A DNA stretch of 32,814 bases, taken from contig JANQPD010000078.1 of the NCBI GenBank assembly GCA_028285465.1, positions 1 to 32,814 on the forward strand. The letters are read 5' to 3'. The stretch is from Owenweeksia sp. Lineage in GTDB: Bacteria > Bacteroidota > Bacteroidia > Flavobacteriales > Schleiferiaceae. The position numbers were made by a program, and so were the translations under genes. This document shows positions 5,591 through 32,814 of the stretch, one piece after another (within the stretch, counting starts at the first letter, position 1; every line of letters starts with the position of its first letter). The notes under the pieces are model-generated. The model did not search any database. It was not told the DNA's origin and saw only the letters and a list, made by a program, of their open reading frames with translations.

Positions 5591-8500
5591 ATGAAGAGAA
5601 TTTTACTATTGTTCGGCATCGTTGCATGCTGGGTAAGTTCTAATGCACAAATTACCGCTCCGTTTACAGAGAGTTTTGATGCAACCTCCATCCCTACGGG
5701 TTGGACAAATACCTCGGCAAGTAGTTCAACTAATGCCAATTGGAAGTTTTCAGGTACTCCTGGAAATCCATCCATGAGTACCTCTGCTTTATATCAGCCT
5801 CCTGTTCCACTTGATCACACTGGAAATGCAGGGAGTTTTGCATGGGTAGACGGCTCTACGCCAAATGTTGATGACACCGGTTTGCTCACAGATACAATTA
5901 ACGCTTCCGCACTCACCAGTGCTTTTGTGGAATTCTGGTATTACTCTAACAACGTTACTAACCCGGGGGACAACATGACCCTCTACCTCAATTTTTATGA
6001 TGGTACTACCTGGCATGACAGCATATGGGGGTATGCGGGAGATGGTAACTTCTGGCAATATGCCGGAGTTGACCTTTCAACTTATACGATTAGCGGGGGC
6101 ATTCTTTTTGAGTTTGTGTTAGATCAAACCACTGCTGGTACCGCTTTTTATAACGATATCTTACTAGATGACATCTCGGTTATCAATAAGCCTTCTTGTG
6201 TTCAGCCTTTTGCTTTTCAAAAGACGAACATTACCAACCAATCCGTTGATTTGGATTGGACGCAATTAAGCACGGCAGGCTCTTATACCATTTTATATGG
6301 ACCAGCTGATTTTGACCCGGCTGTTGCAGGAACAGCCGTAACGGCCAACACAAAACCACACACACTAACAAATTTAGCGGGAAGCACCGAGTATGACCTC
6401 TATATGATCGCCAATTGTGGAGGAGCCAATGGGGTAAGCGATACCTCTGAGGCTACTCGTTTTACGACTTTGGTAAATTGCCCTGCCCCAAGTGGCTTAG
6501 TAGCCACGGATTCAGCATTAAACACTATAACCCTTTCCTGGACTACAGGTGGTTCTACCGCCTGGTTGGTAGAGTATGGTGCTCCTGGCTTTAGCCCGGG
6601 TACGGGTACTACGGTTTCTGCATCCACCAGTACAGGTTTTGTATTGGGTTCGCTGAGCGCATCTACGTATTATGAAATATATGTGCGGGATTATTGCGCT
6701 TCTTTCCCGGATACCAGTACGTATGTTGGCCCTATATTGGTACGCACAGACTGCGCCCCGATTACAGCTCCCTACACAAATGATTTTGAAAGCGAAGCTG
6801 ATGGAGAGCTTACCGCTTGCTGGACACAATACAGCAGTGTAGGCAATGGTTACGCCAGAACGGAGAACCTGGGAGCACCCAGGAGCGGGTCTCAACAACT
6901 GGCTATATACAGTGGCTCCAGTAGTGCAGGCGATACTATAGTGAGCATTATGCCTATGTTAAGCGACCTTACGGCCGGGGATAAGCAATTGGAGTTTTTT
7001 GCCAAGACTTCCAATGCTTCCACGGATCTCGTGATCGGTACACTTTCTTCCGATGACTTTACCACCGGCACTTTTACGCTTATTGATACCGTTAAATTCG
7101 CTGCCGTTAATACGTATGAGCAATTGGTGTATGACCTGACCACGGCAAACGGGTACAATGGAACCGATCAATACGTTGCCTTTATAAATACAGCCGGAAC
7201 TACTTTCGACTACATTTATATAGATGACCTTACGTACCAGACTATCCCTGCCTGTCAGGATCCGATAGCTCTTGCCGTGGGCGGTGTTACCGACTCAAGC
7301 GTAACCCTTACGTTTACCAGTAGTGATACTGTTTTTGACTATGAATATGGCCCCATCGGTTTTGTGCAAGGCACGAATGCAGCAAACATAGGAACAGGCA
7401 CAGGGAACCCGCTTACGGTTTCCGGTCTGGCCGCGGGTACAGGCTATCACATCTACATCAGGACCAATTGTACCAATGCGGGAAGCGGTGTTTCCGGTTG
7501 GGTAGGTCCGGTTACGTTCTTTACGGATTGTTCTATACCACCAGCTGTTACGTTGCCGATACTGGAAGACTTTGAAGGCAGGAGCGGTACATATTTCGAG
7601 AATGCTAATTTTTGCGGAACAGATTACAATATAGATTTCAGTAGCGATGACGCGACAGGCAGGCTGCGTTTTGATGCAGGGGCCGGTTTTGCTCAAAGCG
7701 GAAATGGAGCCGCTACATTAGATCGCAATCCAAGTGGTGGAGTTGTGACAAATTACCTGGATTTTACGATCAATATGACCAATTATGTAGGGGCATCTAA
7801 TATTCAGTTGATATTCGACTTCACACACCATGGAGAAGAGTCAAGCCCCAACGACCGGGTATGGATACGGGGCCACCAAGATTCTGCCTGGATACAGGTA
7901 TATGACCTCTATGCCAACAGGGGCACAGCCGGAACATACAATACAGGGATTACCATAAACCTGGACGATACACTGGCCAATAGCAACCAGGTGTTTACGG
8001 AGTCTTTTCAGATCCGTTTCGGACAGCAGGATGACTTTCCGGCTAATACTCCAGTAGCATCAGATGGTTTTTCTTTTGACAACATACAGGTAAGGCAATT
8101 GCTTTGTGCCCTTCCTACGAACCTCCAGGTCGTGCCTTCCAGCATTACCGCTACTTCGGCCCAGGCCATCTATACCAGCGGAGGGGCTTCCCATCATGTT
8201 GTAGAATGGGGCGTAAGTGGTTTTGTGCCCGCTACCGGGGCACAGTTAGGTAGAATAACCACTACCGATACTTTTTATACCATTACCGGTTTAGCACCTT
8301 CCTCCGTATACGATGTATATGTGTATGACAGTTGCGCGGTTGGTGGCCTTAGCTTCCCGGTAGGTCCGGAAACTTTTGGTACGGCCTGTCCTACTTTTAG
8401 CCCGGCTACCCTACCCTTTGTAGATGGTTTTGAGTCCTATACCGGTCCTGTAAGTACAGACGGTGCTTTCTTCTGCGGGCCCGATTTTTCCTGGTCGGTA

Positions 8501-11500
8501 GATAGACCAGGGGGCACAGGAGAGATCCTGTTTACCTATACTGCTTCTTCGGGGCCAACGCCTCCTTTTGCAGGTTCTCAATCAGCCGGTTTCCAGTCGT
8601 TGAGTTCAGCAAACCCGGTTTACCTCATTCTTACTATTGACATGAGTGCGTATGTAAGCTCTACCACGTCTATTGGCCTCTCTTTTCAATATGCAGACCA
8701 TGCCGATGAACCCAGTGCAAACGACCGGGTATGGGCCAGGGGCAACAATAGCGACCCATGGATCGAGATTTTTGATTGGAGCACGGTAAACTCAAGTAAT
8801 TGGGAGTTTTTTAGCACTAACTTAGATTTGGATTTGGCTGCTGCCGGGCAAAGTTTCTCTTCTTCTACGCAAATAAGATGGGGGCAACAGGACAATGCTG
8901 CCTTAACCGGGGCAGATGGCTTTAGTATAGATGACGTGCGCATTGAAGAAATTCCTTGTCCTGATCCATCAGATCTGGCTGTGCTTAATCTCGTTGACAC
9001 AGCGGCTACACTTTCTTGGCTAGGAAACTCCTCTTCCTATGACGTATGGTTCGGCAGTGCTGGCTTTTTTCAAGGTTCGCTTACCGTAGGAGGTATCAGG
9101 ACCAATGTAACTTCAGACAGCTTGCACGTAGATACCCTTACACCCAATACGTGCTATGAGTTTGTGGTGAAGGCAAAATGTGCCAATGGAGACAGCTCTG
9201 CTTTTGTAGGCCCATTCTTTTTCTGTACACCATGTTCCCCATTTTTTGCTCCCTATACCGAAAATTTTGACGGTACTACGGCACCTGCACTTAACTCGTG
9301 CTGGACAGCTATAAACAACACCTCTTCTACCCTTTCTTTTGTAGGAACCTCCACCTTGAGAAGTACCTCTCCGCCCAACAGCGCGGAAATCGAATACTGG
9401 ACGGGAGGAAGTGGAACCAATGATATATTATTAGTGACGCCTCCGTTTGGTGATTTTGATAATCTCAAAAGGGTACGCTTTAACGTATGGGACGATGACG
9501 GTACCTCTGATCTGATCGTGGGGACAATGAGCAACCCTTCAGATCCTTCCACTTTCACCCCTTATCAAACCATTACGGAGGCCGAAATGCCCGACCAGGA
9601 ATGGAAAGAGATCAGGGTGTTCTTTGGCAATTATACCGGTACCGATAAATATGTGGCGTTTGCACATGGGCTGAATACTACTACAGACCAATTCTACATA
9701 GATGATTTCATTTATGAGCAGCCTACTTGCTTCGATCCTACCAACTTTACCTTTAACGGGAACACTTCCACAAGTGTAGACCTGAGTTGGGTAACCGGAG
9801 GGGCAAGTGACTGGGAAGTAGAGTATGGGCCTCTTGGTTTTGAACCGGGTAGCGGTACAAGGCTTAGCACAACTACGAATACCAATTACATCCTACCCGG
9901 ACTTACTCCCGGTTCCATTTATCATGTATACGTACGCGACAGTTGTGGAGTAGGAGACGTAAGCTTGTGGACCGGACCATTGGTGGCCTATACCTCTTGT
10001 GCTCCGCTGAGCGGTACCTATACCATTGGTGCCACCGGTGATTATGCTTCATTCGCTGATGCAGCCAATGCCTTATCCGTATGTGGTGTGTCCGGGCCGG
10101 TTACCTTCAACGTTCAGCCCGGCTATTATACCGATCATTTGCACCTGAGTGGTATACCCGGTGCAAGAAGAGGGGTGCCCGGTATATCGGCTGCCAATAA
10201 CGTAACGTTCAATGGCTCCGGTAGTGATACCCTGGAGTGGGATGGTTTTGGTGAGCAGGCAACGGTTTGGGTGGATAGCGTAAGCCATGTTACCTTCAAC
10301 AATATGTACATCATCAACGATGTGCCTTCTGAAGGGTGGGGTATCCTGATCACAGACAACTCAGACAGTATTGCGATTACGAACAATACGGTCTTCATGG
10401 ATACCTCCGGTGTCTTCCGCTCGGATAAAGCACCCATTAATGTTTCGGGTGATCCTGAAAATGACATTGTAACCGGAGCCAGTGTAGATCACCTGGTCAT
10501 TACCGGTAACAAGCTGTACGGTGGGTATTATAGCGCGTCTATTTTTGGTGCAGGTACGGCACGCAGTAGCTTTAGTACCGATGTCACGTTTGACAACAAC
10601 GAAGTAAAAGGCTTTTATCTAACCGCGGTTTATATACGTTATTATGATGGTGTCCAGGTAAATGGAAATACCATACGTTCTACGGTATCGGTTACGGATG
10701 AAGACGGTATTTACCTGTTGGATTGCGACAACTATACGGTTGAAGAGAACCAGGTATACGTAAAAGACTGGGCCTTGTACATCAACGATGGCAATGATGG
10801 TGCTACAGTAAGCTCCAACTCTACGGTGATCAACAACATGCTAACCAGTGAAAACGACTACGGCATGTATCTGAATGACCTGGAGAATACCGATGTGTTC
10901 CACAACTCCGTGCTCGGGGAACCCGCTTTACGTCTCAACGACCAGGTGAGTCTCAATATTCAAAACAACATCCTTACTTCTACGGGAGATTTTGCTTTTG
11001 AATCGGACGATGACCTCACCACAAATGATGTGGTAAACTACAATGTGTACTATAGTACAGGGGCCAATCCTTTTGACGTAGGTGCCGGAGGGGTGTATGC
11101 CGACCTGGCCGCCTGGCAGGCAGGCGATGCGGCCAACAATGTGAATTCCTTGGAAGGGGATCCTTTGTTCTTTGGCCCGAACGATTTGCATGTATTTGGC
11201 AGCCTGGCCAATGATGTGGGGAACAACACCCTCGGCATTACGGTGGATATTGACGGAGATACCCGTCCTGCTACAGGCTCTACTATAGTAGACATAGGTG
11301 CGGATGAGTACACACCCGTTCCCGGTGACTATGCCCTGAAGGGAGCAGATTTTGAGAAAGACGGTTTCTGCTTGCGGAACAACGATACCATTGTACTCTT
11401 TGTGGAGAACATCGTAGGTTCCACATCCGATCTTTCCGTAGCTCCGCTTACGGCGAATTACTCCGTTACCGGCCCGGTGAACAGTTCAGGAACCATTACA

Positions 11501-14212
11501 GTAAATACCGGCACCCTGGCGTTAAACGACACCCTGGAAATGCGGGCCTTTAACATCGACTTGAGTATTCCCGGGGAGTACACGCTCAATGCGTATATTT
11601 CTCCTACCGCTGATAATGTTTTAGCGTTCAACGATACGCTTGCGTTCAACAGCGTGACCATACGGATAGACACCGTGTTCCGGGTTACGCCTAAGTCAAC
11701 GGTATTAGGCCTTGGAGATTCTGTGGAGTTACGCGCCCTTTCTCCCTTCTTTGGCGGAGGAGACTTCCATTTTACGGAAATCATGCATTTTAGAAACGCT
11801 GCTGCTGGTTTTCCGGCAGGCGGATGGCCGGCATATATGCCCGCTTCAGTAGATGAATATGTGGAGATCACCGGGGTTCCTGGATCTGATTTGGCCGGGT
11901 ATACTTTTGAACAGTGGAATAATACGGGTACAGCTCCTACGGGTACCATAACTTTTCCGGCAGGTACGGTGATCGGGCCTAACGGAACGGCCTTATTCAC
12001 CATGCGGGGTACGGCTGCCACCAGCCCTGCAGATTTTCTGTATGATGGTTCCGGTGGAAATACTGTGGATTGGCAGTCCGCCAGAGGACAAGGTGTTATC
12101 CTTAAAGACCCAGGCGGCAACATTGTAGACGCTGTAGGTTATCCAGAAAATGGTAACCCATATACTTTTCCGGCCGATGCCAATGTGTCTGCTGCAGATT
12201 GGGGTGGCGGTTCACCGGGGTCTACAAGTAATACATGTGGTGTAAGGCTTGAAGGCCCTGATGTTAATGACGCTACAGGCTGGCTGGTTTCTTCAGCTAC
12301 TTCTCCGCAAGATCCCAATACGGTTAATCTAAATGTAGTTATACCCGCCCCAATATCCGTTACCGGTTTTGACTGGTCCTTAAGCGGAACACAGATAAGT
12401 ACGGATGCTTCTATTAAGGCATATGCAGACAGCTTACCAGCGGGCACCTACAGTTATGTAGGTACCTTCAACAGTCCTTGCGGTACGTTTACGGATACGG
12501 CTGTAGTTGTAATTCCTTCTTGCTTTGCACCCGATGCAGATAGCTTAACGGCTATGACCTTGAGCCAAAGTTCAGCGAGTGTAAGCTGGGATACTACCGG
12601 TTTAGGCGGCAGTACCAATTACGAAGTGGAATTCGGTCCTGTGGGCTATACGCCTGGTACGGGTACGGCTACACCGGTGGTAGCGAATAATACCACTACC
12701 ATTACGGGACTTACTCAAAACCTCTGTGTAGATGTGTATGTGCGTACGGCCTGTTCGCCTAACGACCTCAGTATATGGTCTGGTCCGGTACAAGTGTGTC
12801 CAACTTCGGTACCTTGTGATGACCTGGATGTATACGCACCCGGCCTGGTCGGTGGCCAATCGTCCCTGTTCCTGGAATGGGCAGGTGCCGGTGGCGATGC
12901 TGAGGTGAGTACTACCCGCGCACAAAGCGGTACGCAATCCATGCGCATTACCGACAAAGGTCCGGAAGCCTTTAGCGATATTGTGGCGTACTTTGATACC
13001 ATAGACAATGGCGTATGGGATATTGGATTTAGTATGTATGTGGAATCCGGAGACGGGGCCTACTACAACATCCAGCAAAATCACGTATTGCCAGGACTTA
13101 GCGGGACCAACCTGTGGGGATGCGACATCTACTTTGACGGAAGCGGTACGGCTACGGTACAGTATGCCAACCCTGCGGTAACGGTAGGTACTTTTAGCTA
13201 TGTGCAGGGGCAGTGGATAGATATCAATACGGTGATCGACCTGGACAACGACTCTATCTGGGTAGAGTACAACGGTACATCTACTGGTCTGGGTTGGGAT
13301 TATTCCTCAGCGAATCCCGGGCAGGCACTACAGTTCAACGGAGTGAATTTCTACTCCGGTGTGTTGGCAGGTGGAACTTACGCTATAGATTTTTATATGG
13401 ATGATTTCTGTATCACCCCGAGGGCCGGTGTTTGTCCGATGCCTTCCGCGCCTACTGTAGGAAACATTGATTGTGACAACATCGATGTGAACTTCAGCAG
13501 TAATATAAGCAGTGTGTTGATACAGCACGGTCCTACCGGATTTGGCCTGGGCAACGGTACCTTTAGCGGTATACTAACCGGGGTAAATACATACAATATC
13601 CCTGGCCTGACGGTAGGGAATACCTATGATATATACCTGGCCAATGTGTGCTCCAGCGGAGATACCAGTGCTTTTGCCGGCCCGCTTACCGTAACCACCA
13701 GTGGCCCTGCACCGGTAGCTTCTTTCACCTATGTGGCAAATGGCCTCTCGGTAGACTTTGATGCTACGTCTTCTTCGGCAGGTGTATCAGCAGTCTATGC
13801 CTGGGATTACGGAGATGGAAATATGGGTACAGGGTTAACACCTACTCATGTGTACACCAGTGGAGGCAATTACAATGTGACGCTCACGGTAACAGACGTT
13901 TGTGGTACGGATGATACGACCTTTACGGCAGCAAGCATCAATTTGCTGGAAAACGCACTTGGGCAATCCCTGGCGGTATACCCGAACCCATCTAAAGATG
14001 TGGTGCAGATTGAGTTCAGCAGTATGGGCGAACGCGAGGCTACCATAAGGGTACTCGAACTGAGCGGAAAAGAAGTAATGCGCTTGGAAGTAAGTAACCT
14101 GGATGAAACCTACAGCGGTCAATTGCATCTTGATAAACTGGCACGCGGGGTATATACCCTTGAGATCAATGCCGGTGCATTAAACGCAACCCGCAGGTTG
14201 ATTAAGAACTAA
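5591..14212 (+). CDS. Giant multidomain secreted protein with type A T9SS sorting domain
   Basis: The protein has 2,873 residues. In order: signal peptide about 1-19 (ends SSNA before QITAP); beta-sandwich (MAM/jelly-roll-like) module about 20-203; fibronectin III-like domains about 204-296 and 297-387; then alternating beta-sandwich and FN3-like modules to about 1470 (sandwiches near 388-555, 647-838, 933-1122 and 1215-1379); a right-handed parallel beta-helix about 1471-1913 with repeated VTFNN and VITGNKL-like turns; a CARDB-like segment to about 2030; a lamin-tail domain about 2056-2222 (FTEIMHF, DEYVEI); another Ig-like and an FN3-like domain; a laminin G-like module about 2404-2617; a further FN3-like domain; a PKD domain about 2707-2790 (YAWDYGDGN); and a type A sorting tail from about 2795 (LAVYPNPSKD, ending RRLIKN). 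FN3 units repeat EYGxxGFxPGTGT and YxxYVRDxC. It is probably a surface adhesin; enzyme activity is not evident, although beta-helix folds can be polysaccharide-active. A terminator follows. Confidence 0.93.
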   Translation: MKRILLLFGIVACWVSSNAQITAPFTESFDATSIPTGWTNTSASSSTNANWKFSGTPGNPSMSTSALYQPPVPLDHTGNAGSFAWVDGSTPNVDDTGLLTDTINASALTSAFVEFWYYSNNVTNPGDNMTLYLNFYDGTTWHDSIWGYAGDGNFWQYAGVDLSTYTISGGILFEFVLDQTTAGTAFYNDILLDDISVINKPSCVQPFAFQKTNITNQSVDLDWTQLSTAGSYTILYGPADFDPAVAGTAVTANTKPHTLTNLAGSTEYDLYMIANCGGANGVSDTSEATRFTTLVNCPAPSGLVATDSALNTITLSWTTGGSTAWLVEYGAPGFSPGTGTTVSASTSTGFVLGSLSASTYYEIYVRDYCASFPDTSTYVGPILVRTDCAPITAPYTNDFESEADGELTACWTQYSSVGNGYARTENLGAPRSGSQQLAIYSGSSSAGDTIVSIMPMLSDLTAGDKQLEFFAKTSNASTDLVIGTLSSDDFTTGTFTLIDTVKFAAVNTYEQLVYDLTTANGYNGTDQYVAFINTAGTTFDYIYIDDLTYQTIPACQDPIALAVGGVTDSSVTLTFTSSDTVFDYEYGPIGFVQGTNAANIGTGTGNPLTVSGLAAGTGYHIYIRTNCTNAGSGVSGWVGPVTFFTDCSIPPAVTLPILEDFEGRSGTYFENANFCGTDYNIDFSSDDATGRLRFDAGAGFAQSGNGAATLDRNPSGGVVTNYLDFTINMTNYVGASNIQLIFDFTHHGEESSPNDRVWIRGHQDSAWIQVYDLYANRGTAGTYNTGITINLDDTLANSNQVFTESFQIRFGQQDDFPANTPVASDGFSFDNIQVRQLLCALPTNLQVVPSSITATSAQAIYTSGGASHHVVEWGVSGFVPATGAQLGRITTTDTFYTITGLAPSSVYDVYVYDSCAVGGLSFPVGPETFGTACPTFSPATLPFVDGFESYTGPVSTDGAFFCGPDFSWSVDRPGGTGEILFTYTASSGPTPPFAGSQSAGFQSLSSANPVYLILTIDMSAYVSSTTSIGLSFQYADHADEPSANDRVWARGNNSDPWIEIFDWSTVNSSNWEFFSTNLDLDLAAAGQSFSSSTQIRWGQQDNAALTGADGFSIDDVRIEEIPCPDPSDLAVLNLVDTAATLSWLGNSSSYDVWFGSAGFFQGSLTVGGIRTNVTSDSLHVDTLTPNTCYEFVVKAKCANGDSSAFVGPFFFCTPCSPFFAPYTENFDGTTAPALNSCWTAINNTSSTLSFVGTSTLRSTSPPNSAEIEYWTGGSGTNDILLVTPPFGDFDNLKRVRFNVWDDDGTSDLIVGTMSNPSDPSTFTPYQTITEAEMPDQEWKEIRVFFGNYTGTDKYVAFAHGLNTTTDQFYIDDFIYEQPTCFDPTNFTFNGNTSTSVDLSWVTGGASDWEVEYGPLGFEPGSGTRLSTTTNTNYILPGLTPGSIYHVYVRDSCGVGDVSLWTGPLVAYTSCAPLSGTYTIGATGDYASFADAANALSVCGVSGPVTFNVQPGYYTDHLHLSGIPGARRGVPGISAANNVTFNGSGSDTLEWDGFGEQATVWVDSVSHVTFNNMYIINDVPSEGWGILITDNSDSIAITNNTVFMDTSGVFRSDKAPINVSGDPENDIVTGASVDHLVITGNKLYGGYYSASIFGAGTARSSFSTDVTFDNNEVKGFYLTAVYIRYYDGVQVNGNTIRSTVSVTDEDGIYLLDCDNYTVEENQVYVKDWALYINDGNDGATVSSNSTVINNMLTSENDYGMYLNDLENTDVFHNSVLGEPALRLNDQVSLNIQNNILTSTGDFAFESDDDLTTNDVVNYNVYYSTGANPFDVGAGGVYADLAAWQAGDAANNVNSLEGDPLFFGPNDLHVFGSLANDVGNNTLGITVDIDGDTRPATGSTIVDIGADEYTPVPGDYALKGADFEKDGFCLRNNDTIVLFVENIVGSTSDLSVAPLTANYSVTGPVNSSGTITVNTGTLALNDTLEMRAFNIDLSIPGEYTLNAYISPTADNVLAFNDTLAFNSVTIRIDTVFRVTPKSTVLGLGDSVELRALSPFFGGGDFHFTEIMHFRNAAAGFPAGGWPAYMPASVDEYVEITGVPGSDLAGYTFEQWNNTGTAPTGTITFPAGTVIGPNGTALFTMRGTAATSPADFLYDGSGGNTVDWQSARGQGVILKDPGGNIVDAVGYPENGNPYTFPADANVSAADWGGGSPGSTSNTCGVRLEGPDVNDATGWLVSSATSPQDPNTVNLNVVIPAPISVTGFDWSLSGTQISTDASIKAYADSLPAGTYSYVGTFNSPCGTFTDTAVVVIPSCFAPDADSLTAMTLSQSSASVSWDTTGLGGSTNYEVEFGPVGYTPGTGTATPVVANNTTTITGLTQNLCVDVYVRTACSPNDLSIWSGPVQVCPTSVPCDDLDVYAPGLVGGQSSLFLEWAGAGGDAEVSTTRAQSGTQSMRITDKGPEAFSDIVAYFDTIDNGVWDIGFSMYVESGDGAYYNIQQNHVLPGLSGTNLWGCDIYFDGSGTATVQYANPAVTVGTFSYVQGQWIDINTVIDLDNDSIWVEYNGTSTGLGWDYSSANPGQALQFNGVNFYSGVLAGGTYAIDFYMDDFCITPRAGVCPMPSAPTVGNIDCDNIDVNFSSNISSVLIQHGPTGFGLGNGTFSGILTGVNTYNIPGLTVGNTYDIYLANVCSSGDTSAFAGPLTVTTSGPAPVASFTYVANGLSVDFDATSSSAGVSAVYAWDYGDGNMGTGLTPTHVYTSGGNYNVTLTVTDVCGTDDTTFTAASINLLENALGQSLAVYPNPSKDVVQIEFSSMGEREATIRVLELSGKEVMRLEVSNLDETYSGQLHLDKLARGVYTLEINAGALNATRRLIKN

Positions 14213-24917: not shown

Positions 24918-25739
24918 ATGAACAGGAAAGAGCTGATAGCAGAGATCAAAAAAAAGAAGTCTTGCCTGTGCGTGGGGCTGGACACGGATTTGGAAAAGAT
25001 CCCGGGTCACCTGCTGGAAGAAGAAGACCCTCTGTTTGCCTTTAACAAGGAGATCATAGATGCTACAGCACCTTTTTGTGTAGCGTATAAGCCAAACATT
25101 GCCTTTTACGAAGCCTATGGTTTACAGGGCTGGAAAAGCCTGGAAAAGACCATGGCTTATCTAAGGCAGTATTACCCGAATCACTTTAGCATAGCAGATG
25201 CCAAGCGAGGAGATATTGGCAATACGTCTACCCGCTATGCAAAAGCTTTTTTCAACAAGCTTGGTTTTCACAGCATAACGGTAGCACCCTATATGGGAGA
25301 AGATAGCGTGAAACCTTTCCTGGCCTTTAAAAACAAGTGGAGCATTGTGCTGGGCCTTACCAGCAATAGCGGTGCCCGTGATTTCCAGTTCGCACCTGTG
25401 GGTATGGAGCAGACCCCTCTGTATGAAACGGTATTGCGAAAAACCTCCTCGTGGGGAAATACGGAGAACCTCATGTTTGTGATTGGAGCTACCAAGGCTG
25501 AACACCTACGTAAGGTGAGGGCGGTAATACCCGAGCATTTTTTATTGGTGCCCGGAGTAGGTACCCAGGGAGGAAGCGTGGAAGAGGTAATGACTCATGG
25601 GGCTATCCCCGGTGAAATAGGTTTGCTCATCAACGCATCGAGAAGCATTCTTTACGCATCCTCAGATAAACATTTTGCCAAAACGGCCGCTTCTGAGGCT
25701 GCTCGGTTGAGCCAGCAAATGGTCAAGTTTTTTCTGTAA
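24918..25739 (+). CDS. pyrF: Orotidine 5'-phosphate decarboxylase, type 2
   Basis: The protein has 273 residues, the length of the second PyrF subfamily. It decarboxylates OMP to UMP, the last step of de novo pyrimidine synthesis, in the cytoplasm. CLCVGLDTDLEKIP and AYKPNIAFYEAYG line the substrate site. The catalytic Asp-Lys-Asp network is in ADAKRGDIGNTSTRYAKAFF (D94, K96, D99), which is the type 2 form. LLVPGVGTQGG binds the phosphate. The ATG lies 9 nt after the prfA stop. It is probably the last gene of the operon, because a 290-bp gap with inverted repeats follows. Confidence 0.96.
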   Translation: MNRKELIAEIKKKKSCLCVGLDTDLEKIPGHLLEEEDPLFAFNKEIIDATAPFCVAYKPNIAFYEAYGLQGWKSLEKTMAYLRQYYPNHFSIADAKRGDIGNTSTRYAKAFFNKLGFHSITVAPYMGEDSVKPFLAFKNKWSIVLGLTSNSGARDFQFAPVGMEQTPLYETVLRKTSSWGNTENLMFVIGATKAEHLRKVRAVIPEHFLLVPGVGTQGGSVEEVMTHGAIPGEIGLLINASRSILYASSDKHFAKTAASEAARLSQQMVKFFL

Positions 25740-26029: not shown

Positions 26030-27400
26030 TTGAAGCAGTTTCATCTACTTCTCCTTTTTACACCTTTTTTATTCTTTTCAGATTTATCCGCTCAAACGGG
26101 GCAATCCTTTTGGTTTGTTGCTCCGGATGTTACGGAAACGCACACCGACCGTCCCATTTATTTGAGGATCACTTCAGGAGAAAACGCCTGCTCGGTGACA
26201 ATAGAGCAACCGGCCAATACAAGCTTCACTCCTTTGAATTATAATTTCACTGCCAACCAGACCCAAACGATCGACCTTACTCCTTATATCACTTCTATTG
26301 AAACCTCTGCCCCCGATACCATCCAAAACACCGGCTTGCACATTACTTCTACGGCCGATATAAATGTGTATTATGAAGTCCGCTCCAGCGGCAACAACAC
26401 CGACATTTTTGCCTTAAAATCAGATAATGCCCTGGGTACTGCTTTTTATATACCTGCACAAAGTTTTTGGGAGAACGCAGATAATTACCCACAGGCTTTC
26501 TCCATGTTTTTAGTCGTGGCTACGGAAGACAACACCCTGGTAACCATTACACCTGCCAATACCCTGGTTGGGCATACGGCCAATCAGGCTTTTTCGATTA
26601 CGCTTAACCGGGGAGAAACTTACTACGCCCGGTCTGCTTCCCGCCTGGCAACAGGTCACCTCGGTGGTTCAGAAGTAACCAGCGATAAACCCATTGCCAT
26701 TACCATAGCAGATGATTCCAACAGCAATGACACCTACGGGGGTTGCCGCGACCTTGCAGGAGATCAAATGGTTCCGGTAGACCGCATAGGAAGTGAGTAC
26801 ATCATTGTTAAGGGATTCCTGAAGAAAGGTGGAAATGACCTGGACGATAAGGTATATATACTCGCTATTGAAGACAACACTCAGATATACCTCAATGGGA
26901 ACACCAACCCGGATTATACACTCAATGCAGGAGAACAACAGGAAGTATCGCTGGGTAATACCTCTCTTTACATCACCAGTTCAGCCGATGTGTACGTACT
27001 ACATGTTACAGGGTTTGGATGCGAAGTAGGACTTGCACTATTGCCAAGTATTTATTGTACCGGCTCGGAAAAGGCAACCATTACACGTAGCACCAGCAGC
27101 GACTTCTATCTTCTCTTGTTGGTGCCCGAGGGAAGCGAAGCCGATTTCAGAACCAACGGAGATGACAGCACCATTAAAACCAGCGACTTCAGCCAGGTAA
27201 GTGGTGCAGGGGGCCGATGGATGATGGCTCGCCTGAAGATAGGCACCAATAAAATAGGAGTAGGCAGCGCAACTGAAATTACTAACCTGACTTCGCTTTT
27301 TCACGTAGGCGTCATCAACGGGGGATCAAGCTCGGGCTGCATGTACGGTTATTTCTCCGATTATGCCAGTGTTATTACAGATTCCATCTACCACTTTTAA
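26030..27400 (+). CDS. Secreted protein with IgGFc-binding-like domain, no sorting tail
   Basis: The protein has 456 residues. A signal peptide (about 1-22, MKQFHLLLLFTPF, ending LSAQ) is followed by sequence starting GQSFWFVAPDVTETHTDRP, with blocks typical of the bacterial IgGFc-binding domain (PF17517-like): SDKPIAITIADDSNSN, GDQMVPVDRIGSEYIIVKG and VGLALLPSIYCTGSEKATITR. The start codon is TTG: an in-frame TAA at 26000 rules out any earlier start, and the TTG gives an immediate signal peptide. In Bacteroidota this domain is normally the head of longer proteins that continue into Ig/PKD modules and a type B sorting domain. Here it stops at ITDSIYHF with neither, so export to the surface by T9SS is not assured. 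It lies 5' of two further secreted proteins on the same strand. The ligand is unknown; IgG binding is only a domain name. Confidence 0.85.
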   Translation: MKQFHLLLLFTPFLFFSDLSAQTGQSFWFVAPDVTETHTDRPIYLRITSGENACSVTIEQPANTSFTPLNYNFTANQTQTIDLTPYITSIETSAPDTIQNTGLHITSTADINVYYEVRSSGNNTDIFALKSDNALGTAFYIPAQSFWENADNYPQAFSMFLVVATEDNTLVTITPANTLVGHTANQAFSITLNRGETYYARSASRLATGHLGGSEVTSDKPIAITIADDSNSNDTYGGCRDLAGDQMVPVDRIGSEYIIVKGFLKKGGNDLDDKVYILAIEDNTQIYLNGNTNPDYTLNAGEQQEVSLGNTSLYITSSADVYVLHVTGFGCEVGLALLPSIYCTGSEKATITRSTSSDFYLLLLVPEGSEADFRTNGDDSTIKTSDFSQVSGAGGRWMMARLKIGTNKIGVGSATEITNLTSLFHVGVINGGSSSGCMYGYFSDYASVITDSIYHF

Positions 27401-28258: not shown

Positions 28259-29296
28259 ATGCGCCTGAAGCAGCACATATGGTTTTTGCTGCTTTCGCTT
28301 AGTACTCTTTTGGGCCGTGCCCAGATATTGGATACCATTTGTGTAGAAGGGGGCCGCCAGTCGAACCTGGCGGTACCCTATACACCAGGTGCCAGTTATG
28401 AGTGGAGTATTGGTGGAGGTATTATTATCTCGAAACCGGATAGCAATGATGTTTTGGTAGATTGGAGCACCAATAAAGGGTTGTACCTGGTAAGTGTGGT
28501 ATCTACTTTTGGAACAGCTTGTTATGGGGATACGAGTAAAGCATACATTTATCTGACCCTGCCCAATTACGCACGCATAGAGGGACCGGAAGAGGTTTGC
28601 CGGGGTACCGAAGTAAAGCTTGAGGCTTATGCCGGAAGTGTTTTTGCCTGGCTAGGCGGCAAATCCAGCCAGACAATAAAGTTTGTGGCTGAGCGGGATA
28701 CCTCTGTTTACCTCGTTGCTTTGAACGGACCTTGCCAAAACGATACTACGGTACATACCATCCGGGTACGTGAATTACCCAACCTCGATTTTGACGGGCC
28801 AAGCGATACCGTACCCCTGTGGTCGTTCCAGGATTTTATGCTCTTGAACGAAAATGCCTCGGGCTATGCTTGGTTGGCAGAGGGGCAAGAGGTGTCACAA
28901 GATCCACTCTATATCCATCACTTTAACAAACCCGGAGAATTCAATATCGGGGTCGTGGCCAAGTTTGGACAGTGCATTGATACCCTTATCCGTAAGTATT
29001 ATGTATTCGATGACTTTGCGGTGCATATTCCAAATGCTTTTACTCCGAATGGAGATGGTACAAATGAGCGCTTTCTCTTTAAGGGAGTAGGCATTAAATC
29101 GTTTGAAGCACAAGTATATACCCGGTGGGGGCAAAAAATATACAGTTGGAATGAAACGACAGAAGAACCGGGCTGGGACGGTCAAATGGCGGATGGAACG
29201 CAAGCTCCCTTAGGTGTTTACTTGTATAAGATCTTTGTCACAGACTATTACGGGGGAGTGCACCCGTATTCCGGTCAGTTCAGTTTGTTGCGCTAA
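28259..29296 (+). CDS. Ig-like secreted protein with type B T9SS sorting domain
   Basis: The protein has 345 residues: a signal peptide (about 1-21, LLGRAQ), Ig/PKD-like modules at about 24-100 (DTICVEGG, YEWSIGGGIIIS, VLVDWSTNKGLY) and 101-170 (GPEEVCRGTEVKLEAYAG), a further beta module, and a C-terminal gliding-motility-associated domain (about 255-345). The last has the full canonical signature IPNAFTPNGDGTNERFLFKG, YTRWGQKIY, PGWDGQMADG, APLGVYLYKI and the end GQFSLLR. It is exported by T9SS and anchored at, or released from, the cell surface. No PorP/SprF gene adjoins it, unlike the cargo at the window start. Its stop overlaps the stop of the MarR gene on the other strand (29293-29296). 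Probably cotranscribed with the gene 6 nt upstream. Confidence 0.92.
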   Translation: MRLKQHIWFLLLSLSTLLGRAQILDTICVEGGRQSNLAVPYTPGASYEWSIGGGIIISKPDSNDVLVDWSTNKGLYLVSVVSTFGTACYGDTSKAYIYLTLPNYARIEGPEEVCRGTEVKLEAYAGSVFAWLGGKSSQTIKFVAERDTSVYLVALNGPCQNDTTVHTIRVRELPNLDFDGPSDTVPLWSFQDFMLLNENASGYAWLAEGQEVSQDPLYIHHFNKPGEFNIGVVAKFGQCIDTLIRKYYVFDDFAVHIPNAFTPNGDGTNERFLFKGVGIKSFEAQVYTRWGQKIYSWNETTEEPGWDGQMADGTQAPLGVYLYKIFVTDYYGGVHPYSGQFSLLR

Positions 29297-29742
29297 GCAC
29301 GTACTTTATCCAGAAGGTTGCTTAACTGAAGGGCTTCTTCTTCGGTAAGTTTGTTAAGCACTTTGTCCAGGATATGCTCATCCTGATCCATTTTGTGGAG
29401 CAGAGCCAGCCCTTCTTCCGTAATACAAATGTCGACCAGGCGTTTATCATGTGCACAAACGCCTTTGGCCACCAGCTTCTTTTTTACCAGGCGATCCACA
29501 ATGCGTGAGGTGTCGCTCATCTTATCGAGCATGCGTTCGCGTATTTGTAAAGTGCTCAGTGGGTTAGGATTGCTGCCACGCAGTATGCGCAGTACATTAT
29601 ACTGTTGGGGTGTAAGGTCCTCTTTGGCAAAGCGGTCACGCATCTTTTCTGCCAGAAAACCATTGGTGTACATAATATTGATCAGCGCCTTTTGGCGATT
29701 GCTCTTAAACTTACTTTGCTTGATGTCCTCTTCCAGTCCCAT
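29293..29742 (-). CDS. MarR-family winged-helix transcriptional regulator
   Basis: With the start chosen here the protein has 149 residues, the usual MarR length, beginning MGLEEDIKQSKFKSNRQ. A longer frame opens at 29862, but its extra 40 residues are not MarR-like and a -7 box (TATCTTTG) lies between the two starts. Helices at about 15-40 and 115-149 form the dimer interface. The winged helix includes LTPQQYNVLRILRG, LSTLQIRERMLDKMSDTSRIVDRLVKKKLVAKGVCAHDKR (a recognition helix and a wing with the D-KR motif), then VDICITEEGLALLHKMD. MarR proteins bind DNA as dimers and respond to small phenolic, oxidative or metabolic signals. It is divergent from the DUF2851 operon and convergent with the cargo gene. 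Targets are unknown. Confidence 0.9.
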   Translation of the reverse strand: MGLEEDIKQSKFKSNRQKALINIMYTNGFLAEKMRDRFAKEDLTPQQYNVLRILRGSNPNPLSTLQIRERMLDKMSDTSRIVDRLVKKKLVAKGVCAHDKRLVDICITEEGLALLHKMDQDEHILDKVLNKLTEEEALQLSNLLDKVRA

Positions 29743-29759
29743 AGTGTTGATAATGTGTG

Positions 29760-29767
29760 CAAAGATA
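29760..29767 (-). promoter_or_regulatory. -7 box of the MarR gene
   Basis: On the minus strand TATCTTTG matches TAnnTTTG exactly and ends 17 nt before the ATG at 29742. It supports the shorter MarR start. No clear TTG -33 box is seen. Confidence 0.5.
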
Positions 29768-29904
29768 AGGCTGTACCAGAAAGTATTGTTTAAGGCATCA
29801 TGGGAAGTAAAGCTTCTCCAAAAAACGAATCGTTCCGGCAGGATGGCCGCAAGCTTTCTCAAAGACCCTTGTATTTAGTCCCCTCTATGCTTTTCTTAAG
29901 TCCG

Positions 29905-29961: not shown

Positions 29962-31239
29962 ATGACCGAAGACTTCCTGCACTACCTCTGGAAATTTCAG
30001 AATTTCAATAAAAGGGCACTTTTTACCACTGCTGGAGAAAAAGTGGAGCTTGTAAAGCCAGGTTTCCAAAACCATCATGGTGGTCCTGATTTCGTAGATA
30101 CCCGCATTAGGATCGGCACCCAGCTATGGGCAGGAAACCTGGAGATTCACGTACGCTCTTCGGATTGGAATAAGCACACCCACCAAACGGATGAAGCTTA
30201 CAACAACGTGGTTTTGCATGTAGTGTACGAGCATGATATAGAAGTGAAAAACGAGGCAAATAAGGTATTGCCCACACTCGCGCTTAAAGGACGGTTTGAT
30301 GAATACCTCTACTGGAGGTATGAACAACTCATGCAAAGTACAGGAGGCATACCCTGCAAAAACCATATAAGGAGCGTGGAACCTTTAGTAAGGGAAAGTA
30401 TGCTGGAGCGGGTGCTGGCCGAACGCATTTCAAGGAAGGGGGAGCAATTGCGCAAGCTGTTGGCTTTGAATAAGGGAGACTGGGAGGAAACAGCCTATCA
30501 GTGGCTGAGTTACGGGTATGGGTTGAAGATCAATGCTGATCCGATGCTTTGGCTGGCCAGAACCTTACCCCTCCGTATACTATTAAAACAAGCGGGCAAT
30601 GCACCTCAGGTGGAAGCCTTGCTTTTTGGTACAGCAGGTTTTTTACAAGACGAAGGGGCGGATGAATACTCGAGGACCTTGTTTCGGGAATACCGGTTTT
30701 TAAAGCACAAATACCGGTTGAGGTCTCTGGAAAAGAGCCTTTGGAACTACGGCAGATTACGCCCGGTTGCCTTTCCTGAAATGCGTATCGGCTATTGGGC
30801 AAGTGTACTCACCCAACGCATCCATCTCTTTCAAAGCCTAATCTCCATAGGGCATCTTCCGGAATTGATGAATTACTTCCGGGTTAAAAGCAACCTTTAT
30901 TGGAAGGATCACTACCGCTTGGGCAAGCCCAGCAAAGCGCATTACAACATACCTGGAAAAGCGTTTTTGGAAAACCTGGTGATCAATGTAGCCGTACCTT
31001 TTTTGTATGTATACGCAGAACAAACACAAGAAGATTTTTACCGCCAACGCGCATTGGACCTGCTGGACCAAATGCCCTCTGAAAACAATAAAGTAACCCG
31101 TCTTTTCGAACAATTTGGTACAACGGCTGCTTCTGCTTTTGACTCCCAGGCACTCTTAGAACTCAACACACGGTACTGTGGCCTTAAAAAATGTTTAAAT
31201 TGCAGCATCGGAAATCACATTCTGAAAAAGCAGGTATGA
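29962..31239 (+). CDS. DUF2851 family protein
   Basis: The protein has 425 residues and no signal peptide, so it is cytoplasmic. It matches the DUF2851 family, which is largely confined to Bacteroidota and has no established function known to me. The conserved N-terminal block is HHGGPDFVDTRIRIG (D43), then WAGNLEIHVRSSDWNKHTH (E61, H63) and AYNNVVLHVVYEHD. The spacing of D43, E61 and nearby basic residues resembles a PD-(D/E)XK-like metal site; that is my inference, not a known assignment. The C-terminus has YCGLKKCLNCSIG (C406, C411, C414), a CX4CX2C cluster that could bind zinc. It is first in a dense operon: its TGA overlaps the PspC ATG (ATGA), and a K+ channel and an NAD-dependent reductase follow. 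Confidence 0.92.
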   Translation: MTEDFLHYLWKFQNFNKRALFTTAGEKVELVKPGFQNHHGGPDFVDTRIRIGTQLWAGNLEIHVRSSDWNKHTHQTDEAYNNVVLHVVYEHDIEVKNEANKVLPTLALKGRFDEYLYWRYEQLMQSTGGIPCKNHIRSVEPLVRESMLERVLAERISRKGEQLRKLLALNKGDWEETAYQWLSYGYGLKINADPMLWLARTLPLRILLKQAGNAPQVEALLFGTAGFLQDEGADEYSRTLFREYRFLKHKYRLRSLEKSLWNYGRLRPVAFPEMRIGYWASVLTQRIHLFQSLISIGHLPELMNYFRVKSNLYWKDHYRLGKPSKAHYNIPGKAFLENLVINVAVPFLYVYAEQTQEDFYRQRALDLLDQMPSENNKVTRLFEQFGTTAASAFDSQALLELNTRYCGLKKCLNCSIGNHILKKQV

Positions 31240-31457
31240 TAAATAAAATCCGCGATTATTGCGAAAGGAGAGGCTTTGAAGTATGCACTCGTTTGGGAGA
31301 CAGAATGGGCATCCGGCCATCTGTGGTACGCCTTTATTTCATTTATATTTCTTTTCTGGCCTTCGGCTCTCCTGTGTTGATTTACTTCATGATGGCCTTT
31401 TGGATCCGCTTGAAGGACTACCTGCAGCGCAACCGGACCTCCGTACTTGATCTGTAG
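31236..31457 (+). CDS. PspC domain-containing membrane protein
   Basis: The protein has 73 residues. I chose the ATG at 31236 (MINKIRDYCERRGFEVCTRL), which overlaps the DUF2851 stop by ATGA; an upstream ATG at 31191 would overlap that gene by 49 nt and add residues unlike the family. The domain runs CTRLGDRMGIRPSVVRLYFIYISFLAFGSPVLIYFMMAFWI, a PspC fold with a membrane-inserted hydrophobic segment (about 30-57), ending RTSVLDL. PspC proteins in proteobacteria sense membrane stress, but in Bacteroidota these short forms have no proven role and are often labelled transcriptional regulators. The K+ channel gene starts 5 nt after the stop. Confidence 0.87.
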   Translation: MINKIRDYCERRGFEVCTRLGDRMGIRPSVVRLYFIYISFLAFGSPVLIYFMMAFWIRLKDYLQRNRTSVLDL

Positions 31458-31462
31458 TTTAA

Positions 31463-32485
31463 ATGAGCAGGCGACAACAGTCTCCTATATTGAGGAATGT
31501 GTACCTTACCCTGGGTATTCTGGTTGCTATCCTTGGCATAGGGATCAGTGGCTTTATGCTACTCGAAGGGTTCTCCCTTTTGGAAGCTTTTTATATGACG
31601 GTGATCACGTTGAGCACCGTAGGCTTTGGTGAAGTACATCCCCTTAGTGCAGGAGGCAAGCTTTTTACAGCACTGCTTATCATAAGCAGTTTTGGTATTT
31701 TCGCTTACGGAATTTCACAAATTACCCGTGCCTTGCTCAGCGGTGAGTTGGGGCGCCATTTAAAAATGTACCGCTTGGAGAAAAACATAGATCAGCTAAA
31801 CGGGCATGTTATCATTTGTGGCTTTGGCCGGAACGGCCGGAGAGCAGCTAAAAAGCTCGAAGCGTACAACAAGAGCTTTGTAGTAATTGAAAGCGACCCT
31901 GAAACCATAGATAAGTATGTGTTGCCGGCACAAATCCCTTATATCGCAGGAGATGCAACCAATGATGAAGTGCTTGGGCAAGCCGGCATAGACAAAGCAC
32001 AAAGCCTGATTACTACATTGAGTAAAGATGCCGACAATCTGTACACCGTTATTTCCGCACATGCGCTGAACCCAGCGCTTCGTATTATCAGCCGGGCCTC
32101 TAACAGCAGCGCGGAACAAAAGCTCAGAACTGTGGGAGCAAACGCGGTAGTAATGCCCGAAGGAGTAGGAGGGGCACACATGGCCACGCTTACGGTATCG
32201 CCCAATATTGTAGAATTTTTGGATCACCTCTCCGTAGAGGGGGGCAGTGCCATCAACCTCGAAGAAGTAGACGTAAGTAAGATCAGCAAAAGCAGGCAAA
32301 GCGGCCTATTGAAAGACCTTAAATTGCGCGGCCGTACCGGGTGTAGCATTATAGGCTTAAAAACCAAAGAGGGAGAGTATATCATTAACCCGGGAAGTGA
32401 TCAGGAAATCAGCAAGGATGCTAAGCTTTTTGTATTGGGAAAGCCCGATGAAATCCAAAAACTGTATAATCTGTTAAGCGAATGA
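31463..32485 (+). CDS. Two-TM potassium channel with RCK (TrkA-N/TrkA-C) domain
   Basis: The protein has 340 residues. A first membrane helix (about 10-32), a pore loop with selectivity filter TVGFGE (TVGFG at 52-56) and a second helix (about 66-88) form an MthK-like pore. The cytoplasmic TrkA-N Rossmann domain starts HVIICGFGRNGRRAAKKLE (G120-G125) and continues with VVIESDPETIDKY and YIAGDATNDEVLGQAGI. A TrkA-C domain covers about 255-340 (GCSIIGLKTKEGEYIINPG, LFVLGKPDEIQKL). Such channels conduct K+ and are gated by nucleotide, Ca2+ or redox state through the RCK ring. The gene lies between two PspC genes: 5 nt after the first, and overlapping the second by ATGA. Confidence 0.93.
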   Translation: MSRRQQSPILRNVYLTLGILVAILGIGISGFMLLEGFSLLEAFYMTVITLSTVGFGEVHPLSAGGKLFTALLIISSFGIFAYGISQITRALLSGELGRHLKMYRLEKNIDQLNGHVIICGFGRNGRRAAKKLEAYNKSFVVIESDPETIDKYVLPAQIPYIAGDATNDEVLGQAGIDKAQSLITTLSKDADNLYTVISAHALNPALRIISRASNSSAEQKLRTVGANAVVMPEGVGGAHMATLTVSPNIVEFLDHLSVEGGSAINLEEVDVSKISKSRQSGLLKDLKLRGRTGCSIIGLKTKEGEYIINPGSDQEISKDAKLFVLGKPDEIQKLYNLLSE

Positions 32486-32652
32486 ATAGGAAAGAAGCGA
32501 TGCTTTTGGGCGTATGCCTTTGGCTATCTGAGCGGTTTAGTCTTGACCTGCTTGGCATTCGACTCGTATTTATCATTGCCACCCTCATAGGTTTTGGTAG
32601 TCCTATTTTAATTTACCTGGTCCTGGCACTTGTAAAACCAAAATACTCATGA
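32482..32652 (+). CDS. Second, minimal PspC-like membrane protein
   Basis: The protein has 56 residues, from the ATG at 32482 that overlaps the channel stop (ATGA). The sequence opens MNRKEAMLLGVCLWLSERF, continues with SLDLLGIRLVFIIATLIGFG and ends SPILIYLVLALVKPKYS. This is the PspC pattern of an amphipathic start, a GxxLWxxExF motif, an LDLLGIRL turn and a GFGSPxLIY membrane hairpin. It resembles the PspC at 31236 (GSPVLIYFMMAF against GSPILIYLVLAL), so the two are paralogues on either side of the channel gene. Its stop again overlaps the next ATG. The function is unknown; the position suggests a role with the channel or membrane state. Confidence 0.8.
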   Translation: MNRKEAMLLGVCLWLSERFSLDLLGIRLVFIIATLIGFGSPILIYLVLALVKPKYS

Positions 32653-32814
32653 AAATACTTGTAACAGGCTCTAACGGCCTGTTAGGTCAAAAACTGGTTC
32701 ACAGGCTTAGCGCGGATGAAGAAATAAACCTTATAGCGACTTCACGCGGAACAAACCGCCTGGCGCATCAGAAAAACTACAGTTACTACAGTCTTGACAT
32801 CACGGAGCGGCATG
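32649..32814 (+). CDS. NAD-dependent sugar reductase/epimerase, RmlD-like (3' end outside window)
   Basis: The first 55 residues are visible. MKILVTGSNGLLGQKLVHRL is the GxxGxxG nucleotide-binding start of the extended short-chain dehydrogenase family, and the sequence then reads LIATSRGTNRL and YSYYSLDITE. GSNGLLGQKLV is typical of dTDP-4-dehydrorhamnose reductase (RmlD) and related proteins, but too little is present to fix the substrate. The ATG overlaps the previous stop by ATGA, so the gene belongs to the DUF2851-PspC-channel-PspC operon. Confidence 0.8.
   Translation, partial: MKILVTGSNGLLGQKLVHRLSADEEINLIATSRGTNRLAHQKNYSYYSLDITERH

Follow-up and report, generated by a model that had tools for sequence, protein, structure and literature searches.

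A PspC-family gene beside an RCK channel with a variable selectivity filter, and a neighboring DUF2851 protein of predicted nuclease- and glycosylase-like fold, in Owenweeksia and other Bacteroidota

Introduction

A run of five same-strand genes closes a 32,814-nucleotide contig of Owenweeksia sp. (Bacteroidota; assembly GCA_028285465.1, contig JANQPD010000078.1). The full contig, C22 in the analysis, is called the window here; relatives, phylum genomes and loci carry G and L numbers. The genes encode a DUF2851 protein, a small PspC-family membrane protein (PspC-A), a channel with an RCK domain, a second small PspC protein (PspC-B) and an SDR reductase. A sequence-only reading had taken the tight packing of this string to suggest a functional unit linking membrane state, K+ flux and DUF2851. 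Which of these genes belong together?

The core of the conserved string appears to be a PspC-partnered RCK channel, with DUF2851 a separate protein that is PD-(D/E)XK-like and HhH-GPD-like by predicted fold. We hold this reading with about even confidence. The main outcomes are the pairing of PspC-A with the channel, the variable filter of the channel and a fold prediction for DUF2851. The functions discussed are all ones that we infer. A literature search found no described arrangement of PspC with potassium channels, or of RCK channels with odd filters in Bacteroidota, and no description of the variable filter or the DUF2851 fold; subscription literature was mostly outside its coverage and novelty is unproven.

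Gene order around the channel

Channel orthologues were found at E<1e-80 in 25 of 60 related genomes, and these 25 loci were read. PspC-A lies immediately 5' of the channel in 22 of them, which bears out the expectation that the order is conserved across related genera. DUF2851 directly precedes PspC-A in 20 loci (one cut by a contig end, two broken) and PspC-B directly follows the channel in 10. Two genomes (loci L047 and L060) carry PspC-A and the channel and have no DUF2851 anywhere. Stops and frame breaks interrupt DUF2851 in two others (G056 and G043, loci L049 and L051), with PspC-A, the channel and PspC-B intact. The background of neighbors was measured by BLAST clustering of flanks of up to 6 kb over 27 loci, the 25 plus L151 and L158. 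The reductase recurred in 23, coming after the channel or PspC-B in each, DUF2851 in 22 and a PspC-type gene in 21; any other neighbor recurred in at most 12. The clustering of these three with the channel exceeds chance.

An even sample of 395 genomes represented the phylum, with counts made on the best matches listed (92 for PspC-A at E<1e-19, 96 for DUF2851, 23 for the channel). DUF2851 is present in 280 of the 395 genomes and a PspC-A-like match, among those listed, in 92. A DUF2851-PspC-A pair, defined as less than 700 nt between the matches, occurs in 51 genomes among the listed matches, and the channel is next in 10. The window-type channel clade (E<1e-140) is found, again among the listed matches, in 15 genomes. 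All 15 have PspC-A just before the channel, with 6-43 nt between the matches; DUF2851 stands before PspC-A in 10 and is 4-34 kb distant in 5. In the wider channel family (L205-L219) neither PspC-A nor SDR stands alongside within the flanks read, and 38 of 40 mostly distant DUF2851 loci have no PspC-A alongside.

A third set comprised the best 80 of at least 589 named loci, mostly Flavobacteriales such as Psychroserpens burtonensis, Polaribacter glomeratus, Maribacter halichondriae and Leeuwenhoekiella aequorea; the same species may occur here and among the relatives or phylum genomes. PspC-A is directly 5' of the channel in 60 of the 80 and the complete trio of DUF2851, PspC-A and channel is present in 43. 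SDR is within reach in 24 and PspC-B in 2. The spacing from PspC-A to the channel in the 60 loci is most commonly 3 nt (16 loci), -4 nt (9) or 2 nt (9); in a set of 18 measured loci that contains the window, it lies between -11 and +34 nt. The channel was missing in the sampled genomes of one genus (g21) and one family (f6), yet is common in the marine Flavobacteriaceae of the named loci.

Distance matrices were compared for the 40 named loci that have all three proteins and a DUF2851 frame of more than 380 aa. Every pair of the three was correlated (0.84-0.88). The partial r of PspC-A and channel given DUF2851 was 0.57, a value reached in 0 of 999 permutations, and that of PspC-A and DUF2851 given the channel was 0.34.

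Because DUF2851 moves or decays with PspC-A and the channel intact, and PspC-A pairs with DUF2851 where the channel is missing, PspC-A is the hinge of the string, and it is the channel that depends on having PspC-A for company.

The RCK channel and its filter

The channel matched MthK over profile positions 12-335 (E 1e-47) and was matched to GsuK by sequence too. It shares with them two transmembrane segments with a P-loop and a cytosolic RCK domain. The RCK motif reads GFGRNG...E143 in the window channel; GxGxxG is complete in 29/29 aligned channels, with Glu at residue 143 in 25 and Asp in 4. The same site is seen in RCK2 of GsuK, where such a GxGxxG...D/E pattern binds nucleotides and ADP and NAD+ activate the channel, according to the accessible part of that report (PMC3510474). 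The window-type channel differs in having one RCK per subunit, whereas GsuK has two, in the PspC-family gene directly upstream, and in its selectivity filter, where orthologues have often replaced the second glycine.

In the window the filter, TVGFGE, fits the T-V-G-Y/F-G pattern and keeps this glycine. The first filter glycine is constant in 37/37 PspC-A-adjacent channels, as counted in alignment columns with the duplicate loci L202 and L194 dropped. The second is present in 46 of 97 PspC-A-adjacent orthologues and absent from 51, replaced by S, N, A, Q, K, T, R, E or M. A quick tree of the 97 sequences, built with the filter columns removed, showed at least 21 switches between glycine and another residue. 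The idea that the missing glycine is tied to PspC-A was rejected: channels without PspC-A have it in 5/18 in one set and 8/20 among the named loci, and so lack it as often (13/18; 12/20). Judged from these alignments, the variable second position is a trait of the wider channel family, since channels without PspC-A show it too. Relaxed cation selectivity in the non-glycine orthologues is a reasonable prediction and no more: one bacterial channel found in nature, whose filter departs from the canonical one in another way, is described as non-selective (PMC5052707).

The PspC proteins

PspC proteins are known as stress sensors. The domain scores (Table 1) confirm the earlier statement that two small PspC-type proteins stand on either side of the RCK channel. 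PspC-A has an invariant Arg32 (27/27 aligned) and a C-terminus, S-V-[FL]-D-[LI], that is almost constant in nearer sequences and variable in some others; no known structure was matched by its sequence up to E 10. PspC-B is confined to some lineages. The PspC domain, and in PspC-A the conserved arginine (R32), are shared with PspC of the Psp response. The two proteins differ from it in their minimal size of 56-73 aa, in the channel as neighbor and in that PspA was not detected: a search for PF04012 gave no match in the window genome, which is 99.97% complete, and was positive in 9/14 control genomes. A role of PspC-A and PspC-B in a classical Psp system in this genome is unlikely because no PspA was detected in it.

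In the accessible part of a broad Psp survey (PMC11237479), the partners given for PspC are histidine kinases, Toastrack and LiaI-LiaF-TM domains. A K+ channel is mentioned there only in connection with PspA/CesT-Tir operons, and no description of PspC with an RCK channel was found in that part. Fusions of PspC to a channel were not noticed, although no systematic search was made.

The DUF2851 protein

In the literature searched, the one mention of DUF2851 found was a row in a table of fosmid genes (PMC3861447). No known structure was matched by its sequence up to E 10. A structure predicted from 61 aligned sequences had a mean pLDDT of 96.7 and a pTM of 0.90. It was searched as a whole, both domains together, so that the list may miss families, and VIA-align 2 was run on the Foldseek top 1000. 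Against the viral structure library nothing was found at E<=0.001.

For residues 132-425 of the predicted model, five AGOG-type entries came first (Z 9.4, 9.2, 9.2, 8.8 and 8.3), the best with an rmsd of 4.2 over 205 aligned residues and a Foldseek E that was not significant. One of the five, 1xg7, is titled a conserved hypothetical protein and served as an AGOG search model, as stated in the available text of PMC9638937. MUTYH followed at Z 5.7 and three MutY entries at 4.6, 4.6 and 4.3. Other helical folds were mostly at Z <3, save a Fanzor entry (4.0) and an eIF2B-complex chain (3.7). This stretch is read as HhH-GPD-like because one superfamily fills the top six rows, above the other helical folds. 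Residues 1-114 of the predicted model matched EndoMS (Z 5.1, rmsd 3.3, 92 aligned), NucS (4.8) and the Can2 nuclease (3.5), with DrdV (2.4) and one unrelated entry (2.1) lower down.

When the DUF2851 profile was compared by hhalign with that of 25 MutY proteins of related genomes, the score was 33.0 (P 0.001, probability 21%); 60 column shuffles averaged 16.3 and reached at most 23.7. The stretch concerned is the MutY Fe-S loop, SQALLELNTRYCGLK-KCLNC in DUF2851 against NQAxMEfGAlxCxPKxPxCxxC, and offers weak sequence support, independent of the fold, for a likeness to MutY. With 11 Nth-type sequences from these genomes the same comparison found no signal (probability 0.1-0.2), nor did the N-terminal half show one with Nth-type or MutY sequences.

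Ten residues are invariant in 61/61 sequences: E3, D43, E61, H63, H72, H74, C132, C406, C411 and C414. An earlier description of DUF2851 as a lineage-restricted protein with a possible metal site and a cysteine cluster is thus upheld in its acidic, histidine and cysteine residues, and is too narrow in its "lineage-restricted", given the 280 phylum genomes. The first domain resembles EndoMS/NucS and other PD-(D/E)XK nucleases in its predicted fold, and E3, D43 and E61 are plausibly placed for an active site. It differs in its fusion to an HhH-GPD-like domain and in the E-x-K lysine position, which is His63 in 61/61 (P42-D43...E61-x-H63); the D...(D/E)-x-K motif is absent. Accessible text on NucS names E127, D160, E174, K176, Q187 and Y191 (PMC7343888). 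In sequence position, as distinct from a residue-level structural alignment, the order and spacing of E3/D43/E61/H63 plausibly fit the first four of these, with His for Lys.

The second domain resembles AGOG and MutY in the predicted fold of residues 133-421 and in an Fe-S loop-like SQALxxL...YC..KKCLNC. The MutY-branch spacing C-x6-C-x2-C-x5-C is replaced by C406-x4-C411-x2-C414 and the distant C132, three of the four cysteines aligning with MutY; C132 may complete a four-cysteine site (Fe-S or Zn) with the others. AGOG chemistry uses K142 and D174, and both chain ends of AGOG lie within one domain, according to the part of PMC9638937 available. Residues 133-425 of DUF2851 hold no invariant Asp or Lys among the 61 sequences (K159 is Lys in 51/61), and for that reason glycosylase chemistry is probably absent. 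In its model DUF2851 looks like both superfamilies in fold, and it is assigned to neither, because the defining motifs tested in each were missing.

A DNA-repair neighborhood for DUF2851 was considered and is unsupported; its neighbors, read by eye, are mixed. Shorter relatives in family f38 (L142, L143 and L138) match only the first ~200-220 profile positions and adjoin a gene that reads as PRPP synthetase; their second domain may differ.

Layout of the locus and neighboring genes

The coordinates of the string (Table 1) were re-derived and agree with the junctions first described: ATGA overlaps at 31236, 32482 and 32649, and 5 nt separating the end of PspC-A (31457) from the channel (31463). 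A scan for sigma-70-type promoters gave 7 sites where 4.4 were expected and told nothing about this string. The final 99 nt of the window match the end of contig C3 without a difference, probably as an assembly overlap, and the reductase frame runs on in C3 to its stop (locus L003, 9426-10256, minus strand). About 6.5 kb past the reductase, on the opposite strand, L003 1051-2895 reads by eye as MutL.

Table 1. Features of the five-gene string and its upstream regulator (window positions)
Feature	Position	Strand	Basis or remark
MarR-type regulator, divergent, upstream of DUF2851	29293..29862	-	looser neighbor, at 11/27 loci
DUF2851 protein, 425 aa	29962..31239	+	PF11013 442.9 bits; predicted model and structural matches; MutY profile match
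DUF2851 domains, predicted: PD-(D/E)XK-like ~1-114; HhH-GPD-like ~133-421	29962..31239	+	four invariant Cys; predicted fold
PspC-A, 73 aa, PspC-family membrane protein	31236..31457	+	PF04024 25.7 bits, cut-off 25 (marginal)
RCK channel, two transmembrane segments, 340 aa	31463..32485	+	TrkA_N 110.1, Ion_trans_2 52.9, TrkA_C 39.4 bits, each over cut-off
Selectivity filter codons TVGFGEV, channel residues 52-58	31616..31636	+	alignment
PspC-B, 56 aa, canonical PspC domain	32482..32652	+	PF04024 42.2 bits, cut-off 25
RmlD/epimerase-like SDR reductase, cut by contig end	32649..32814	+	Epimerase 24.3 bits, cut-off 20.9

OMP decarboxylase (pyrF) is encoded at 24918-25739, upstream of DUF2851 with several genes in between. 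In several distant lineages (L125, L132, L135, L139, L141 and L147) the immediate 5' neighbor of DUF2851 reads as pyrF, which suggests an old pyrF-DUF2851 neighborhood. Elsewhere in the window, 26030-27400 encodes an IgGFc-binding-domain protein (146 bits), with apparent relatives similarly placed in 4/27 related loci, and 5591-14212 a secreted protein of 2873 aa that carries fn3, PKD, MAM and beta-helix domains and ends in a tail for type IX secretion. A defense-system reading of the string was rejected: PADLOC was blank for DUF2851 and both PspC proteins, and the channel had only a chance-level Cas8b match.

Discussion

The string could be explained as housekeeping, that is, as co-transcribed genes kept for expression in a slow-changing neighborhood (prfA-pyrF-...-DUF2851-PspC-A-channel-SDR-symporter-...) with no functional coupling. 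Unrelated neighbors do recur in the 27 loci (HhH-like 12, MarR 11, pyrF-like 10, symporter-like 10), as does the gene next to DUF2851 that reads as pyrF in distant lineages. This is possible, if on the unlikely side; PspC-A and the channel persist together when DUF2851 moves or decays or SDR is absent, in many families and above the neighbor background. It is far less probable, indeed very improbable, that DUF2851, both PspC proteins and the channel all work together, for example as a membrane or ion-flux response controlling a nuclease. The 51 DUF2851-PspC-A pairs and the 43 full trios are what such a unit would produce, but most of the pairs have no such channel, DUF2851 has moved in 5/15 channel genomes and is broken in two, and nearly all the mostly distant DUF2851 loci lack an adjacent PspC-A. 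The sequence-only reading had named absence of the channel from most such loci as its own refutation. For the DUF2851-PspC-A loci among the matches listed this is what was found, and the inclusion of DUF2851 in one unit with the channel is not supported.

The same pairs fit another history, in which DUF2851 and PspC-A are the ancient partners, together forming a nuclease tethered to the membrane, and the insertion of the channel between PspC-A and SDR came later. In L082, L084 and L233 SDR comes straight after PspC-A with no channel (DUF2851 is present too in L082 and L084), and DUF2851-PspC-A without the channel is found in many genomes of families f3, f6 and f17. In the five channel genomes where the two part, however, PspC-A stayed with the channel and not with DUF2851. 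We regard this alternative as improbable.

Several observations weigh against a PspC-partnered channel with a separate, nuclease-like DUF2851. Adjacency is no proof of a complex, and the distance correlation, which mainly shows co-inheritance by shared descent, is a weak sign of contact. The channel has no PspC-A alongside in three of the 25 relative loci (L056, L057 and L061, where DUF2851 is absent too) and in 20 of the 80 named loci (two near contig ends). Among the listed matches, 41 of the 51 genomes with a DUF2851-PspC-A pair have no channel match at E<=1e-40, and in 20 further loci PspC-A-like genes occupy varied, unrelated contexts. PspC-A has roles of its own, because it is a class-wide gene, found beside DUF2851 without the channel and in unrelated contexts. 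As to the fold, Foldseek found nothing at E<=0.001 for the DUF2851 model, and for helical folds a VIA-align 2 Z below ~13 can, by the tool's own warning, reflect a common arrangement. The MutY profile match is short (~30 columns), of low probability (16-21%) and cysteine-driven, and no HhH-GPD or nuclease family was among 25 of the 28 weak Pfam families listed for the 61 DUF2851 members.

Under the PspC-partnered reading a mechanism can be proposed. PspC-A would be an auxiliary subunit beside the channel that biases channel opening under perturbation of the inner membrane, and the RCK ring would respond to NAD(H) or an adenine nucleotide in the cytosol. Once open, the channel would pass K+, resetting turgor or membrane potential; in lineages without the second filter glycine other cations possibly pass too. 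PspC-B would be a lineage-specific second copy of the PspC-A idea and the SDR reductase a co-transcribed neighbor. DUF2851 would be an older, separate neighbor, a nucleic-acid enzyme by predicted fold, in which an HhH-GPD-like DNA-binding domain with a probable four-cysteine (Fe-S or Zn) site is joined to a metal site of PD-(D/E)XK-like type. A stronger version is doubtful: that the PspC proteins, as dedicated subunits, give a nucleotide-gated RCK channel (about half of the orthologues without the second glycine, and so perhaps of relaxed selectivity) a PspA-free response to inner-membrane stress, and that DUF2851 founds a nuclease family in which a PD-(D/E)XK-like site is joined to an HhH-GPD-like DNA reader with four cysteines.

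Free replacement of the second filter glycine makes this channel family a natural test set for the role of that residue. The predicted nuclease- or glycosylase-like fold makes the widespread DUF2851 directly testable at its metal site and four cysteines. A dedicated ion-channel partner, if true, would explain how PspC proteins act without PspA.

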